A program made the position numbers and the translations under genes. From positions 1 through 22,991 of IMG/VR virus record IMGVR_UViG_3300000837_000003: DNA of 22,991 nt; one strand, given 5' to 3'. Each line of letters opens with the position of its first letter. Position 1 is the first letter of the stretch. Source of the DNA: a virus. Below the pieces are notes generated by a model. It saw nothing but the letters and a program-made list of their open reading frames with translations. It was not told the origin of the DNA and ran no database searches. Shown here one piece after another: positions 5,164 to 8,565 of the stretch.

Positions 5164-5168
5164 AGCTT

Positions 5169-5411
5169 TTAGAGGCTCTCATAAGTTTGAACTGAATTTT
5201 TGTAGGTTGAGAGAAACTTGTTGTAGGGAAGGCCAGTTGAAATAATTCTTCCGTCAGAAGAAGAAGAGGGAGCGCCGCCCTTGGAAACTTTTATTGAGAA
5301 AAAGAGAAAAGACAGAAGGGCGGCCAGAGAGGATCTTCTATTCACTGGTGATAAATAATAGCAGGGGCGGGCAGAGAGGACAAACAAAAACACAATGGGG
5401 AATCTCTTCAA
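5169..5411 (-). CDS. possible small membrane/secreted ORF, non-ATG start
   Basis: An 80-aa reading frame that opens with TTG at 5411. An internal GTG at 5345 would give a 58-aa protein, VNRRSSLAALLSFLFFSI..., with a basic N-terminus followed by a hydrophobic segment like a signal anchor. The C-terminal part (SDGRIISTGLPYNKFLSTYKNSVQTYESL) reads like normal protein and ends 5 nt before the next gene. Neither start has a convincing ribosome binding site. The TTG start coincides with a recurrent intergenic sequence element (5392-5407), so the longer form may instead be untranslated leader. If real, it would be the first gene of the leftward operon. Confidence 0.35.
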   Translation of the reverse strand: MKRFPIVFLFVLSARPCYYLSPVNRRSSLAALLSFLFFSIKVSKGGAPSSSSDGRIISTGLPYNKFLSTYKNSVQTYESL

Positions 5412-5602
5412 CTCTCAAAAGAAGAAAAAAGAAAAAGAAAAGCAGAAGAAAGAAGAAGAAGAAAATCAGTAAGTTTTACCGGTTGGTTTTTTTAATTTGA
5501 AAAAAGTTTAGTAAATTTTGTTGAATTCTATGGGATACTGGCGAGTTGACTGATCCAAAAAGGTCTTTGCCCCCTCTCGACTACAATTTGTCTGATTCAT
5601 GT

Positions 5603-5656
5603 TGCTTACTACTGTTTGTTGTCTACAGATTGCAGCCTAGCTGTTGGTAGTAAGCA
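5603..5656. repeat. 10-bp perfect inverted repeat
   Basis: TGCTTACTAC (5603-5612) and GTAGTAAGCA (5647-5656) are perfect reverse complements separated by 34 nt. The spacing suits either a paired operator or a long stem-loop. No T-run follows on the + strand, so it is not a simple terminator. Confidence 0.7.
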
Positions 5657-5715
5657 GGAATAGTTCTGTCAGATAGAACTTAGGACTGACAGGCAGAACT
5701 AGCAAGACTGGCAGA

Positions 5716-5736
5716 ATGTGACAATCTACGTCACAT
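5716..5736. promoter_or_regulatory. operator-like palindrome ATGTGAC-N7-GTCACAT
   Basis: A 21-bp element with perfect 7-bp arms and a 7-nt spacer. The half-site extended by two bases, ACGTCACAT, occurs at 5728-5736 and again at 5772-5780, 44 bp away. The geometry is that of a dimeric repressor or CRP-like binding site. No regulator gene is visible in the window except possibly the HTH protein at 4139-4792. Confidence 0.55.
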
Positions 5737-5911
5737 GCTAACCCGTTGATTTTAAACGAATCTGCCGAGAAACGTCACATTTCAGCTAGGATTGTCTCCA
5801 GTTGACGACACTAGCAAACTGACAGATCGAGCTAAGCCCTTGATTCTAAAGGATTTTCAGGTTTTGGGCTGCTGGCACGTCGTCTGCTTTGTGTGTAGTG
5901 TTTTTTTTCTT

Positions 5912-5940
5912 TTGATTTTAGGTTTGAACTTAACTAACTT
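5912..5940 (+). promoter_or_regulatory. weak sigma70-like promoter candidate for first rightward gene
   Basis: TTGATT (5912-5917), a 17-nt spacer, then TAACTT (5935-5940). Both boxes deviate from consensus. The predicted start near 5947 would produce a leader of about 115 nt containing the two hairpins at 5993-6040 ahead of the 6063 gene. Spacing and position support it; the weak boxes argue for caution. Confidence 0.3.
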
Positions 5941-5992
5941 CGACTTTAGTGGTCCGGAACCCAAGGGGAAAACTATCGGCTAGAACTCAGAG

Positions 5993-6040
5993 AACTAGCA
6001 CATTCGATTGAGTGAGCTAGTTTCCTGCGCCTAGCAGGAA
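5993..6040 (+). promoter_or_regulatory. tandem hairpins in 5' leader of the 246-aa gene
   Basis: Two stems lie back to back just upstream of the start codon. The first pairs AACTAGC (5993-5999) with GCTAGTT (6016-6022). The second pairs TTCCTGC (6022-6028) with GCAGGAA (6034-6040) around a 5-nt loop. GCTAG at 6016-6020 can alternatively pair with CTAGC at 6031-6035, which would break both stems. This is a leader with two mutually exclusive folds, or a pair of protein-binding hairpins protecting the mRNA 5' end. The second stem ends 22 nt before the first ATG. Confidence 0.5.
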
Positions 6041-6062
6041 TCAGAAAATCTAACTTCATAGG

Positions 6063-6803
6063 ATGATTGCAAACATCATGGCTACACTCATGGTTTTGAA
6101 AACTGGTAATTTCGTCGGTAAGACTGTCGCTGTTGCGGACAAGGACGGTTTTCGCGAAGTAGTTGGAGCGAATCAGATTCCGGGCTTCCGTTATTCTTTT
6201 GTCAGTTTCAAGGCAAAGAGCGGTCTGCAATCCTTCGCGGCACAGACTCCGGTAGTTTCGCTCAAGGATGTTTTGGCAACAGCCAAGGGAACAGAATTTG
6301 TCGAAGGATTGATCGCAGACTATCAAGATTCACTGGTGCGAAAGGTTGTTGAAGCAAAAGAACTCGGAAGCATTCTGCCGAGGATTGAATCAATCGAAGT
6401 AGACGGCACGACAGTCAATGATTTGAATGTCTCGGCAATGGTTGCAGACTACTTCGACACGACGAGAGATCGGAGCGGAATCACACGAGAGCAGGTTATG
6501 GAATGGGTCAAGAATGTTTGGACTGAAGCATTTGCGACTAGGCAGGTTGAACTCAATCCGCAGATTCCGACTGAACGAATCACGATGATGGTCACAGCCT
6601 ATTCCAGCTACTTCAAAGCTATCTGCGGACGTCAGAGCGGACTGGCAAAGGAAGTTCTAATTTCCTGCCGCCAAGTTCTTACAAAGCTAACTGAACTTGG
6701 CAAGCTTCCCGAAGATGATCCGATTACGGAGTATCTGATTGAAAAGATTGCAAGCTTCATGCAAGAAGGAAGCAAAGCACAAATTCTTGCGGACGCGGTC
6801 TAG
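6063..6803 (+). CDS. unknown 246-aa protein, first gene of right arm
   Basis: I do not recognise the family. The N-terminal 60 residues look beta-rich (MVLKTGNFVGKTVAVADKDG...YSFVSFKAK). The rest looks helical, with GITREQVMEWVKNVWTEAF (about 136-154) and a C-terminal helix ending QILADAV. No membrane segment or catalytic motif is visible. Start choice is open: the ATG at 6063 has AGG directly touching it, too close to act as a ribosome binding site. The ATG at 6078 (MATLMVLKTG...) follows a distant GGATGA. Base composition is visibly richer in G and C than the neighbours, with many GCG, CGG and CGA codons. Placed behind a structured leader and ahead of a strong hairpin, it is probably abundant. 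Its helical half resembles the protein at 12096-12725 in layout, possibly a distant paralogue. Confidence 0.85.
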   Translation: MIANIMATLMVLKTGNFVGKTVAVADKDGFREVVGANQIPGFRYSFVSFKAKSGLQSFAAQTPVVSLKDVLATAKGTEFVEGLIADYQDSLVRKVVEAKELGSILPRIESIEVDGTTVNDLNVSAMVADYFDTTRDRSGITREQVMEWVKNVWTEAFATRQVELNPQIPTERITMMVTAYSSYFKAICGRQSGLAKEVLISCRQVLTKLTELGKLPEDDPITEYLIEKIASFMQEGSKAQILADAV

Positions 6804-7341: not shown

Positions 7342-7584
7342 ATGCCAAACTTTTCTACTATCACTCCCTACAACTTCAGAGCTATTGATTGTGGAAGGAA
7401 TGTTGTTGAAGCTCCAGTTTCTTCTCTTTACATGGACTTGCAATTGTTTCTTGCTCTAGCTAGTTTTAAGTCTGATGCAGAGTATTGTTTGGATGCTCCA
7501 GACAGAATTCCAGCAGGTTATAGTTTTTGGGGAAAGATTTCTGGTAAAAGCTTACAAGGAACTTGCAAGAGGGATGAGGACTGA
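7342..7584 (+). CDS. hypothetical 80-aa protein
   Basis: A small soluble protein, MPNFSTITPYNFRAIDCGRN..., with a short hydrophobic helix (LYMDLQLFLALASF, about 29-42). The C-terminus is Cys/Lys/Asp-rich (GTCKRDED). No family is recognised. The start is preceded by AGAGAATTTCTAAATG, a context very like the one before the DHH gene (AGGGAATTCTCTAAATG at 17503-17520), suggesting a shared initiation signal rather than a strong AGGAGG. It stands alone between a pyrimidine-rich leader and the large inverted-repeat region. Confidence 0.6.
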   Translation: MPNFSTITPYNFRAIDCGRNVVEAPVSSLYMDLQLFLALASFKSDAEYCLDAPDRIPAGYSFWGKISGKSLQGTCKRDED

Positions 7585-7603: not shown

Positions 7604-7652
7604 TTCCCCATTGTATGACATTGTGTCATATTGTGGTGCTTTGTGCCCTTGT
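7604..7652 (+). repeat. left arm of 49-bp imperfect inverted repeat
   Basis: Three perfect blocks, TTCCCCATTGTAT (7604-7616), ATTGTGG (7630-7636) and TTGTGCCCTTGT (7641-7652), match the reverse complement of 7946-7994 with identical spacing; I count 38 of 49 positions identical. The arm also contains a private palindrome TATGACA-TTG-TGTCATA (7614-7630). Its outer part, AGAGATTCCCCATTGT (7601-7616), recurs on the opposite strand at 5392-5407. Confidence 0.85.
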
Positions 7653-7657
7653 GCAGA

Positions 7658-7683
7658 GGGGGTGGCCTGTCCTCTGGCCCCCC
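7658..7683 (+). terminator. G/C-rich hairpin, possible terminator of the 80-aa gene
   Basis: GGGG-t-GGCC (7659-7667) pairs with GGCC-CCCC (7676-7683) around an 8-nt loop, with one bulged T. The tail is TTTCTGTTTCTG, a broken T-run. It could terminate rightward transcription from 7342-7584, or be part of the inverted-repeat structure, since the right arm is also followed inward by a C-rich stretch on its own strand. Confidence 0.4.
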
Positions 7684-7945
7684 TTTCTGTTTCTGTCCGT
7701 AACTACTAATCTCTCTAATTCTCTCTAGATTAGTCTTTCCATCCTCTAGATTAGTCTATACCCCCCTATATTTAAAAAAATTTGTAAATATAAAAGTTAC
7801 AGGTTAGTAAACACTAACTAGTAAGTTTCCTATTTATAGACCCGTGGCTATTATCGGTAGATTCCAGACTGATAGATTTAGTGGATTGAGGGATGAAACC
7901 ACTAAAATTGAGTTGGGGGGCTGAGGGAGAGGGGAGGGGTGTTGA

Positions 7946-7994
7946 ACAAGGGCACAACATGCCACAATGGTACACTCAGTAATACAATGGGGAA
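7946..7994 (-). repeat. right arm of 49-bp imperfect inverted repeat
   Basis: The blocks ACAAGGGCACAA (7946-7957), CCACAAT (7962-7968) and ATACAATGGGGAA (7982-7994) are the reverse complements of the left-arm blocks, with the same 4-nt and 13-nt gaps. The outer ends of the two arms enclose 391 bp. The arm ends 34 nt before the SprT-like start codon, so it could act on that gene's promoter. Confidence 0.85.
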
Positions 7995-8028: not shown

Positions 8029-8565
8029 ATGAAAGATTTTGAATACGCTGCGCTTCAAGAAATAGGCAGATGCAAAGCAATCTTTTTGAAAGAGATAGCA
8101 GAAGAAGAGATGCAATTCTTTCCAGAAGAAGTTGAAGTTAAATGGAATTGCAAAGGAACTGCAGCAGGTTGGGCACACTATCCTTCTTTGATTAGACTCA
8201 ACAAGATTTATGCAGAACAAGAAGGAGAAAGCTATCTAAAGACTGTTGCTCACGAATTTGCACATATCTGTTGCTATTTTTGTAGGGATAGAAGGATAGC
8301 TTTCAAAGGACAAACAGATTACAGTAGTCATGGTTTTGTCTGGCAAGAGATTTTTAGAAGCTTCGGATTCAATCCTGACAGAACCCATAGCTATGATGTA
8401 GAAGAAATCAAAAGCGAGGCAAATTATATAGTTTATCAGTGCAGATGCCCGGGCCGACTTTGGCAAATTAGCCCGCGTATGCAGACTCAAATGAACAGAG
8501 GTAGAAGATATAAATGTCAACGCTGCGGCGCACTCCTCAGTCTTATTCTTCCAGACGAAATCTGA
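8029..8565 (+). CDS. SprT-like zinc metalloprotease
   Basis: A 178-aa protein with a gluzincin active site HEFAH (residues 75-79; H75 and H79 bind zinc, E76 is catalytic). A third histidine ligand candidate is H101 in SSHGFVWQEIF. The C-terminus carries a zinc ribbon with cysteines at 138, 140, 163 and 166. This is the domain order of SprT/Spartan proteins, the eukaryotic members of which cut DNA-protein crosslinks. Many phages carry small homologues of unknown target. The start is firm: AGGAG lies 7 nt before the ATG. It stands alone, between the inverted-repeat region and a hairpin at 8591-8625. A role in clearing proteins from replicating phage DNA is an inference. Confidence 0.85.
   Translation: MKDFEYAALQEIGRCKAIFLKEIAEEEMQFFPEEVEVKWNCKGTAAGWAHYPSLIRLNKIYAEQEGESYLKTVAHEFAHICCYFCRDRRIAFKGQTDYSSHGFVWQEIFRSFGFNPDRTHSYDVEEIKSEANYIVYQCRCPGRLWQISPRMQTQMNRGRRYKCQRCGALLSLILPDEI

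Follow-up and report, generated by a model that had tools for sequence, protein, structure and literature searches.

Mirror-image arrays of short boxes around an AT-rich core in a podovirus family: a candidate replication origin and early operator

What is the role of a gene-free segment of a phage genome that is closed at both ends by an inverted repeat? The question is raised by positions 7604-7994 of a viral DNA of 22,991 nucleotides (IMG/VR record IMGVR_UViG_3300000837_000003, positions 1-22,991), the whole of which is referred to here as the window. The repeat most likely frames a control element of double-stranded DNA, and not an RNA gene or a transposon.

The inverted repeat and its surroundings

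When the left arm of the repeat (7604-7652) is aligned with the reverse complement of the right arm (7946-7994), 38 of 49 positions agree, the count reported in a first-pass annotation of this DNA. The matching blocks that it described, of 13 nt (7604-7616), 7 nt (7630-7636) and 12 nt (7641-7652), are confirmed as well, with gaps of 13 and 4 nt that are equal in both arms. The arms can be extended to 7604-7655 and 7943-7994, where 40 of 52 positions match. No other inverted repeat in the window is as strong, and its score of 25.6 (ungapped scheme) compares with a best score of at most 17.0 across 80 block-shuffled relatives.

The repeat was also correctly described as enclosing a gene-free interval. 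It lies between two ORFs on the plus strand, at 7342-7584 and 8029-8565 (SprT-like), and contains no recognisable gene. Among 53 elements of this type (see below), stop-free stretches are not longer than in shuffled sequences (56 vs 58 aa). The features of the element and its neighborhood are as follows.

6063-6803, plus strand: ORF246, an uncharacterised member of the family fam225 (37.9 bits; E 1.7e-9 in the six-frame set)
7604-7655, plus strand: left arm, with an outer TTCCCCA followed by TTGTG-like boxes at 7611, 7621, 7631, 7641 and 7649
7653-7690, plus strand: GC-rich inner hairpin adjoining the left arm, a predicted fold with a 14-pair stem
7723-7757, plus strand: CTCTAGATTAGTCT, present twice in the left half, which is pyrimidine-rich
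about 7767-7816, no strand assigned: AT-rich core (84% A+T over 50 nt), a candidate unwinding region
7913-7941, plus strand: purine/G-rich segment preceding the right arm
7943-7994, minus strand: right arm, the reverse complement of the left arm (40/52) in the same register, with boxes on the plus strand at 7953, 7963, 7973 and 7983
7959-7988, plus strand: candidate sigma-70-like promoter within the right arm, ATGCCA-N18-TACAAT, weak (9/12), reading into the SprT-like and early genes
8029-8565, plus strand: SprT-like protein, the first gene past the element, as it also is in the related locus L161
9086-10078, plus strand: ORF330, a member of fam348, a conserved family between the element and the helicase gene

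The TTGTG-like boxes of the left arm follow each other at spacings of 10, 10, 10 and 8. The skew switches within the element, from -0.29 in the left inner half to +0.43 in the right inner half.

Another gap, larger than this one, also lacks a convincing gene; it is located at 5164-6062, between the leftward structural genes and the rightward early genes. Inside this 900-bp gap, the 16 nt at 5392-5407 are identical to the outer end of the left arm (ACAATGGGGAATCTCT). As a third copy of the arm end this match was rejected, being at chance level (score 12.0 vs 12.4 for the null).

Recurrence and architecture of the element in related phages

The genes for TerL, the portal, DNA polymerase I, primase and a Dda-like helicase place the phage taxonomically. 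Judged from these sequences, it is a member of the podovirus family that contains Polaromonas phage Tiera, Aeromonas phage P5, EBPR podovirus 3 and the Pseudomonas PaP2/119X/PaMx group (Fredfastierviridae). The amino-acid identity to these named relatives is about 30-40% for TerL and the helicase, and 28-37% for the polymerase. The family has many members in environmental metagenomes, and no replication origin, initiator or lysis/persistence switch was found to be known for it.

An exact-pattern scan of viral contigs for the whole element gave no match. Direct DNA searches of phage and plasmid collections with the window element found nothing similar either, and relatives were therefore gathered through alignments of TerL and the helicase, giving 160 IMG/VR loci. 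In a scan confined to the 5 kb upstream of the helicase gene, 36 of the 54 loci with enough upstream sequence have an inverted repeat above the maximum of 324 shuffles; the other 18 do not pass this ungapped test. The position of the element is common to most of the relatives, 2-4 kb upstream of the gene for the Dda-like helicase.

The 53 distinct elements are 257-510 bp in length (median 356), with arms of 21-83 nt. They were chosen by inverted-repeat score, and for this reason the identity of their arms is partly built in and cannot count as independent evidence. Evidence that does not depend on this selection comes from place, periodicity, composition, promoter and folding symmetry, and largely also from the register.

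The arm sequences differ totally between phages, but within one phage the left and right arms correspond in the same register. Used as a single-sequence profile, the window element matches the loci L136 and L078 (E 6e-6) and, weakly, L161. The equivalent gap in L161 also precedes an SprT-like gene, and it has its own 45-nt terminal inverted repeat with an entirely different arm sequence. In 52 of the 53 loci, no copy of an arm is found elsewhere in the same locus. The sole locus with an extra copy nearby is L127, where the left-arm region occurs twice (L127:421-591 and 823-872). A universal sequence core was considered and rejected: a weak AT-rich/GGGG-or-CCCC motif is present in many elements, but it was not recovered in the window.

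The arms consist of short sites in tandem, one every 8-10 bp, and are inverted relative to each other. The left arm has a period of 8 in 19 loci, of 10 in seven and of 9 in four, compared to none among shuffled arms. Examples of the repeated units in the left arms of relatives are TGCCAGAA, TTGACTAA and TCCTATTA, with three copies each, and GTAACCAT, with two. The identity of the arms is 0.75 in the true register, compared to 0.55 in the best period-shifted register.

The two sides of the element differ in their relation to transcription. A sigma-70-type promoter on the plus strand, directed towards the helicase gene, overlaps the right arm in 23 of the 53 elements, compared to one in shuffles. 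No promoter facing outwards is found on the left arm in any of the 53. The suggestion in the first-pass annotation of operators or promoters thus has support on the right, but its "pair of facing promoters" does not, since a counterpart directed the other way is absent from the left arm.

The A+T content is 77% at the center of the elements and about 62% in the flanks, and this AT-rich middle is rich in TA steps (0.124 vs 0.076 per nt). The GC skew changes at the core from -0.29 to +0.13, with the left side C-rich and the right side G-rich (p 2e-8). A change of at least 0.3 is present in 33 of the 53 elements, compared to 7% of random windows, and the mean change is +0.42 in the elements and 0.01 in random windows. 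The elements show no enrichment in DnaA boxes or IHF sites. In PaP2 and P5, though not in Tiera, the whole-genome GC skew reaches its minimum about 2 kb away from the element; this minimum is confounded by divergent transcription.

Among the cultured relatives, Tiera has an inverted repeat in a 780-bp gap, with a score (16.4) just under the shuffle maximum. In the PaP2 group the element is conserved, and its CCTTG-type boxes overlap a TACAAT promoter; its inverted repeat is weak (scores of 11.8-15.8, with null maxima of 10.8-12.8). Independent divergence of the two arms in relatives, which the first-pass annotation had named as counting against its proposal, is not seen family-wide, where the arms of one phage stay matched. 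It does occur within the close PaP2 group, where the right array gains a unit and substitutions without a mirror change on the left.

Candidate DNA-binding proteins

Two protein families encoded near the element were considered as binders of the arms. The first, fam225 (95 loci), adjoins the element in 44 of the 53 relatives, in either orientation. Its members often end in an acidic DDL-like tail, a feature that they share with further early proteins in L136 and L161. Neither Pfam nor PHROG gave a convincing assignment for this family, and a Foldseek search of the PDB with its predicted model (pLDDT 78) gave no match at E <= 0.001. A profile search in Tiera, P5, EBPR3 and PaP2 gave no match for fam225, a result that is little informative.

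The second, fam135 (KYRPxLT...), is a family of small proteins encoded downstream of the element in 23 of the 53 relatives. The similarity of the arm motifs follows that of fam135, with partial Mantel correlations of 0.51 when fam225 is controlled, 0.46 for TerS and 0.39 for fam348 (each 0/2000 permutations), in a comparison of six families over 18-20 loci where the TGCCA and GACT clades carry much of the signal. In the reverse tests, with fam135 controlled, the correlations are 0.04 for fam225, 0.03 for TerS and 0.17 for fam348. As a binder of the arms fam225 was rejected, as its divergence does not track the arm motifs once fam135 is controlled.

The fam135 proteins are predicted to be all-helical. 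Their best structural match (Z 3.6) is uninformative, and no DNA-binding fold is recognisable in them. No member of fam135 was detected in the window. Therefore, if fam135 is the binder in its relatives, the window phage uses a substitute.

Candidate functions of the element

Our preferred reading is that the element is an iteron-type replication origin, with the right array also controlling the early promoter, a reading that we hold to be evenly poised between right and wrong. Each arm would be an array of binding sites for a single DNA-binding protein specific to the phage, at a spacing of 8-10 bp, which is roughly a helix turn or a little under. The arrays face each other, and the protein would fill both. 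With the arrays held side by side, the roughly 290 bp of intervening DNA would loop, and the AT-rich, TA-step-rich core may then open and become the place where replication starts. The helicase, primase and DNA polymerase that the phage encodes downstream would take part in this replication. Because the right array lies over the early promoter, the same protein would also limit early transcription. The origin dyad proposed in the first-pass annotation is compatible with the inverted arrays, the AT-rich core and the skew switch; protein binding, bridging or looping of the arms, melting and the start of replication at the element are what we infer.

The element shares several properties with the iteron-type origins of plasmids and episomal prophages (P1, R6K, lambda ori), namely arrays of short repeats (here presumably protein-bound), an adjacent AT-rich segment, overlap with a promoter and a gene-free position among early and replication genes. 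However, the sites of iteron-type origins are about 17-22 bp apart, compared to 8-10 bp here. Moreover, the phage element has an array on either side of the AT core, the two being mirror images in the same register, and there is no recognisable initiator. Origins that depend on a protein or on an RNA have been described for extrachromosomal mycobacteriophages (PMC7157519).

An origin also agrees with what is reported for a close relative of PaP2. Shea, which is 98.6% identical to PaP2, is reported to persist as a non-integrated episome with superinfection resistance and has no recognised lysogeny gene (PMC13348215), and such episomal persistence requires extrachromosomal replication. A candidate origin or operator, together with a candidate binding protein, would provide one short DNA target for the question of episomal persistence.

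The nearest rival reading is that the element is an operator region and no origin, which we regard as possible though on balance unlikely. Two arrays of repressor or activator sites, bridged by DNA looping, would then switch the early promoter of the right arm, and the AT-rich middle would serve only as a flexible loop or an extra promoter. The restriction of the promoter overlap to the right arm agrees with this, as do the arm motifs, which diverge in the manner of immunity specificities and track a small early protein, and the superinfection resistance reported for the episomal relative of PaP2 (PMC13348215). On the other hand, an operator function does not by itself explain the AT peak, the excess of TA steps and the central skew switch, nor the finding that the arms occur nowhere else in the genome. 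The present data cannot separate an origin from a loop that is purely an operator.

Looped operators of the lambda type, the OL/OR pair with its repressor, are similar in having two multi-site arrays, one of them over an early promoter, with a specificity that varies between relatives. In the phage element, however, a promoter is present in one arm only, the arrays do not enclose a repressor gene, and the loop is 290 bp of AT-rich, gene-free DNA. The operators of MetJ and omega-type ribbon-helix-helix proteins consist of tandem 8-bp or 7-bp boxes. They resemble the arms as tandem short boxes about 8 bp apart over a promoter, but fam135, the family that tracks the arm motifs, is predicted to be all-helical and lacks the ribbon-helix-helix fold.

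Neither iteron origins nor looped operators are new as such. What is new here, judging from the papers searched, is the combination of register-matched, mirror-image arrays of 8-10-bp boxes around an AT core, in a conserved place and with a sequence that turns over. No published description of the element was found in the literature searched, most subscription literature lying outside its scope.

An extension of the origin reading, which we put forward as a speculation and think rather doubtful, is that the element represents a distinct class of phage origin. Its mirror-image, register-matched arrays of 8-10-bp boxes would be bridged by a new family of small all-helical proteins (fam135 and unrelated substitutes), which would open the AT core and repress the early promoter at once. 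With the boxes and the protein changing in step, incompatibility or immunity groups would be defined by the element, which would also be the switch behind the non-integrated, episomal persistence reported for a PaP2-like phage. Fast paired divergence of the boxes and the protein would also offer a natural series on changes in DNA-binding specificity.

A large structured non-coding RNA of the ROOL/GOLLD kind, transcribed from the plus strand with the arms as its basal stem, is an attractive reading from the window alone. ROOL and GOLLD RNAs are likewise foldable, gene-free phage segments of several hundred nucleotides with closed ends, and the plus strand of the window element has a predicted folding energy of -158.5 kcal/mol (z -8), which ranks first among 226 windows; the fold includes 22 G-U pairs. 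The RNA reading was dropped after comparison with the 53 relatives, which show no strand bias, and we now consider it improbable. The plus strand is the more stable one in 21 of the 53 elements (p 0.11), and the mean z scores of the two strands are -6.7 and -7.0. A selected RNA would place its G-U pairs on one strand, so the equal folding of both strands makes a strand-specific structured RNA unlikely. In addition, an Rfam search, which covers described families, gave no match above threshold, the promoter is at the distal end and directed away from the element, and a stem does not need tandem boxes in its arms. The changes in the right array of the PaP2 group, unmirrored on the left, are expected of protein sites and not of base pairs.

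A site for DNA packaging or for the genome ends, with the boxes bound by the small terminase, is no more credible. In its favor, terS is 2-3 kb away from the element, and PaP2, 119X and PaMx41 were deposited as records whose ends lie within the element. However, five related records continue uninterrupted across this point, and a genome terminus at the element is for this reason not established. The similarity of TerS, moreover, does not account for the arm motifs once fam135 is controlled. The MITE-like insertion suggested in the first-pass annotation would account for terminal inverted repeats around a gene-free segment, but it can be practically dismissed, given a fixed syntenic place in most relatives despite unrelated arms, no second genomic copy, nothing similar in the phage and plasmid collections, and neither a clear target-site duplication by eye nor presence or absence as a unit.

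The elements that we favor as origins also have an unusual content of some tetranucleotides. GATC is rare inside the 53 elements, with 11 occurrences compared to 51 expected from dinucleotide shuffles; nine of the elements carry one and the window element has none. It is not avoided genome-wide (ratio 0.97). The rarity possibly reflects escape from control of the Dam/SeqA type, and local composition may account for part of it. GTAC is also rare inside the elements (27 vs 91 expected), and strongly so in the window (11 vs 82 expected). In the pooled relatives (L006 and L011-L170), AGCT (1.94x) and TGCA (1.69x) are over-represented, and TCGA (0.48x), CCGG and GGCC (both about 0.6x) are under-represented.
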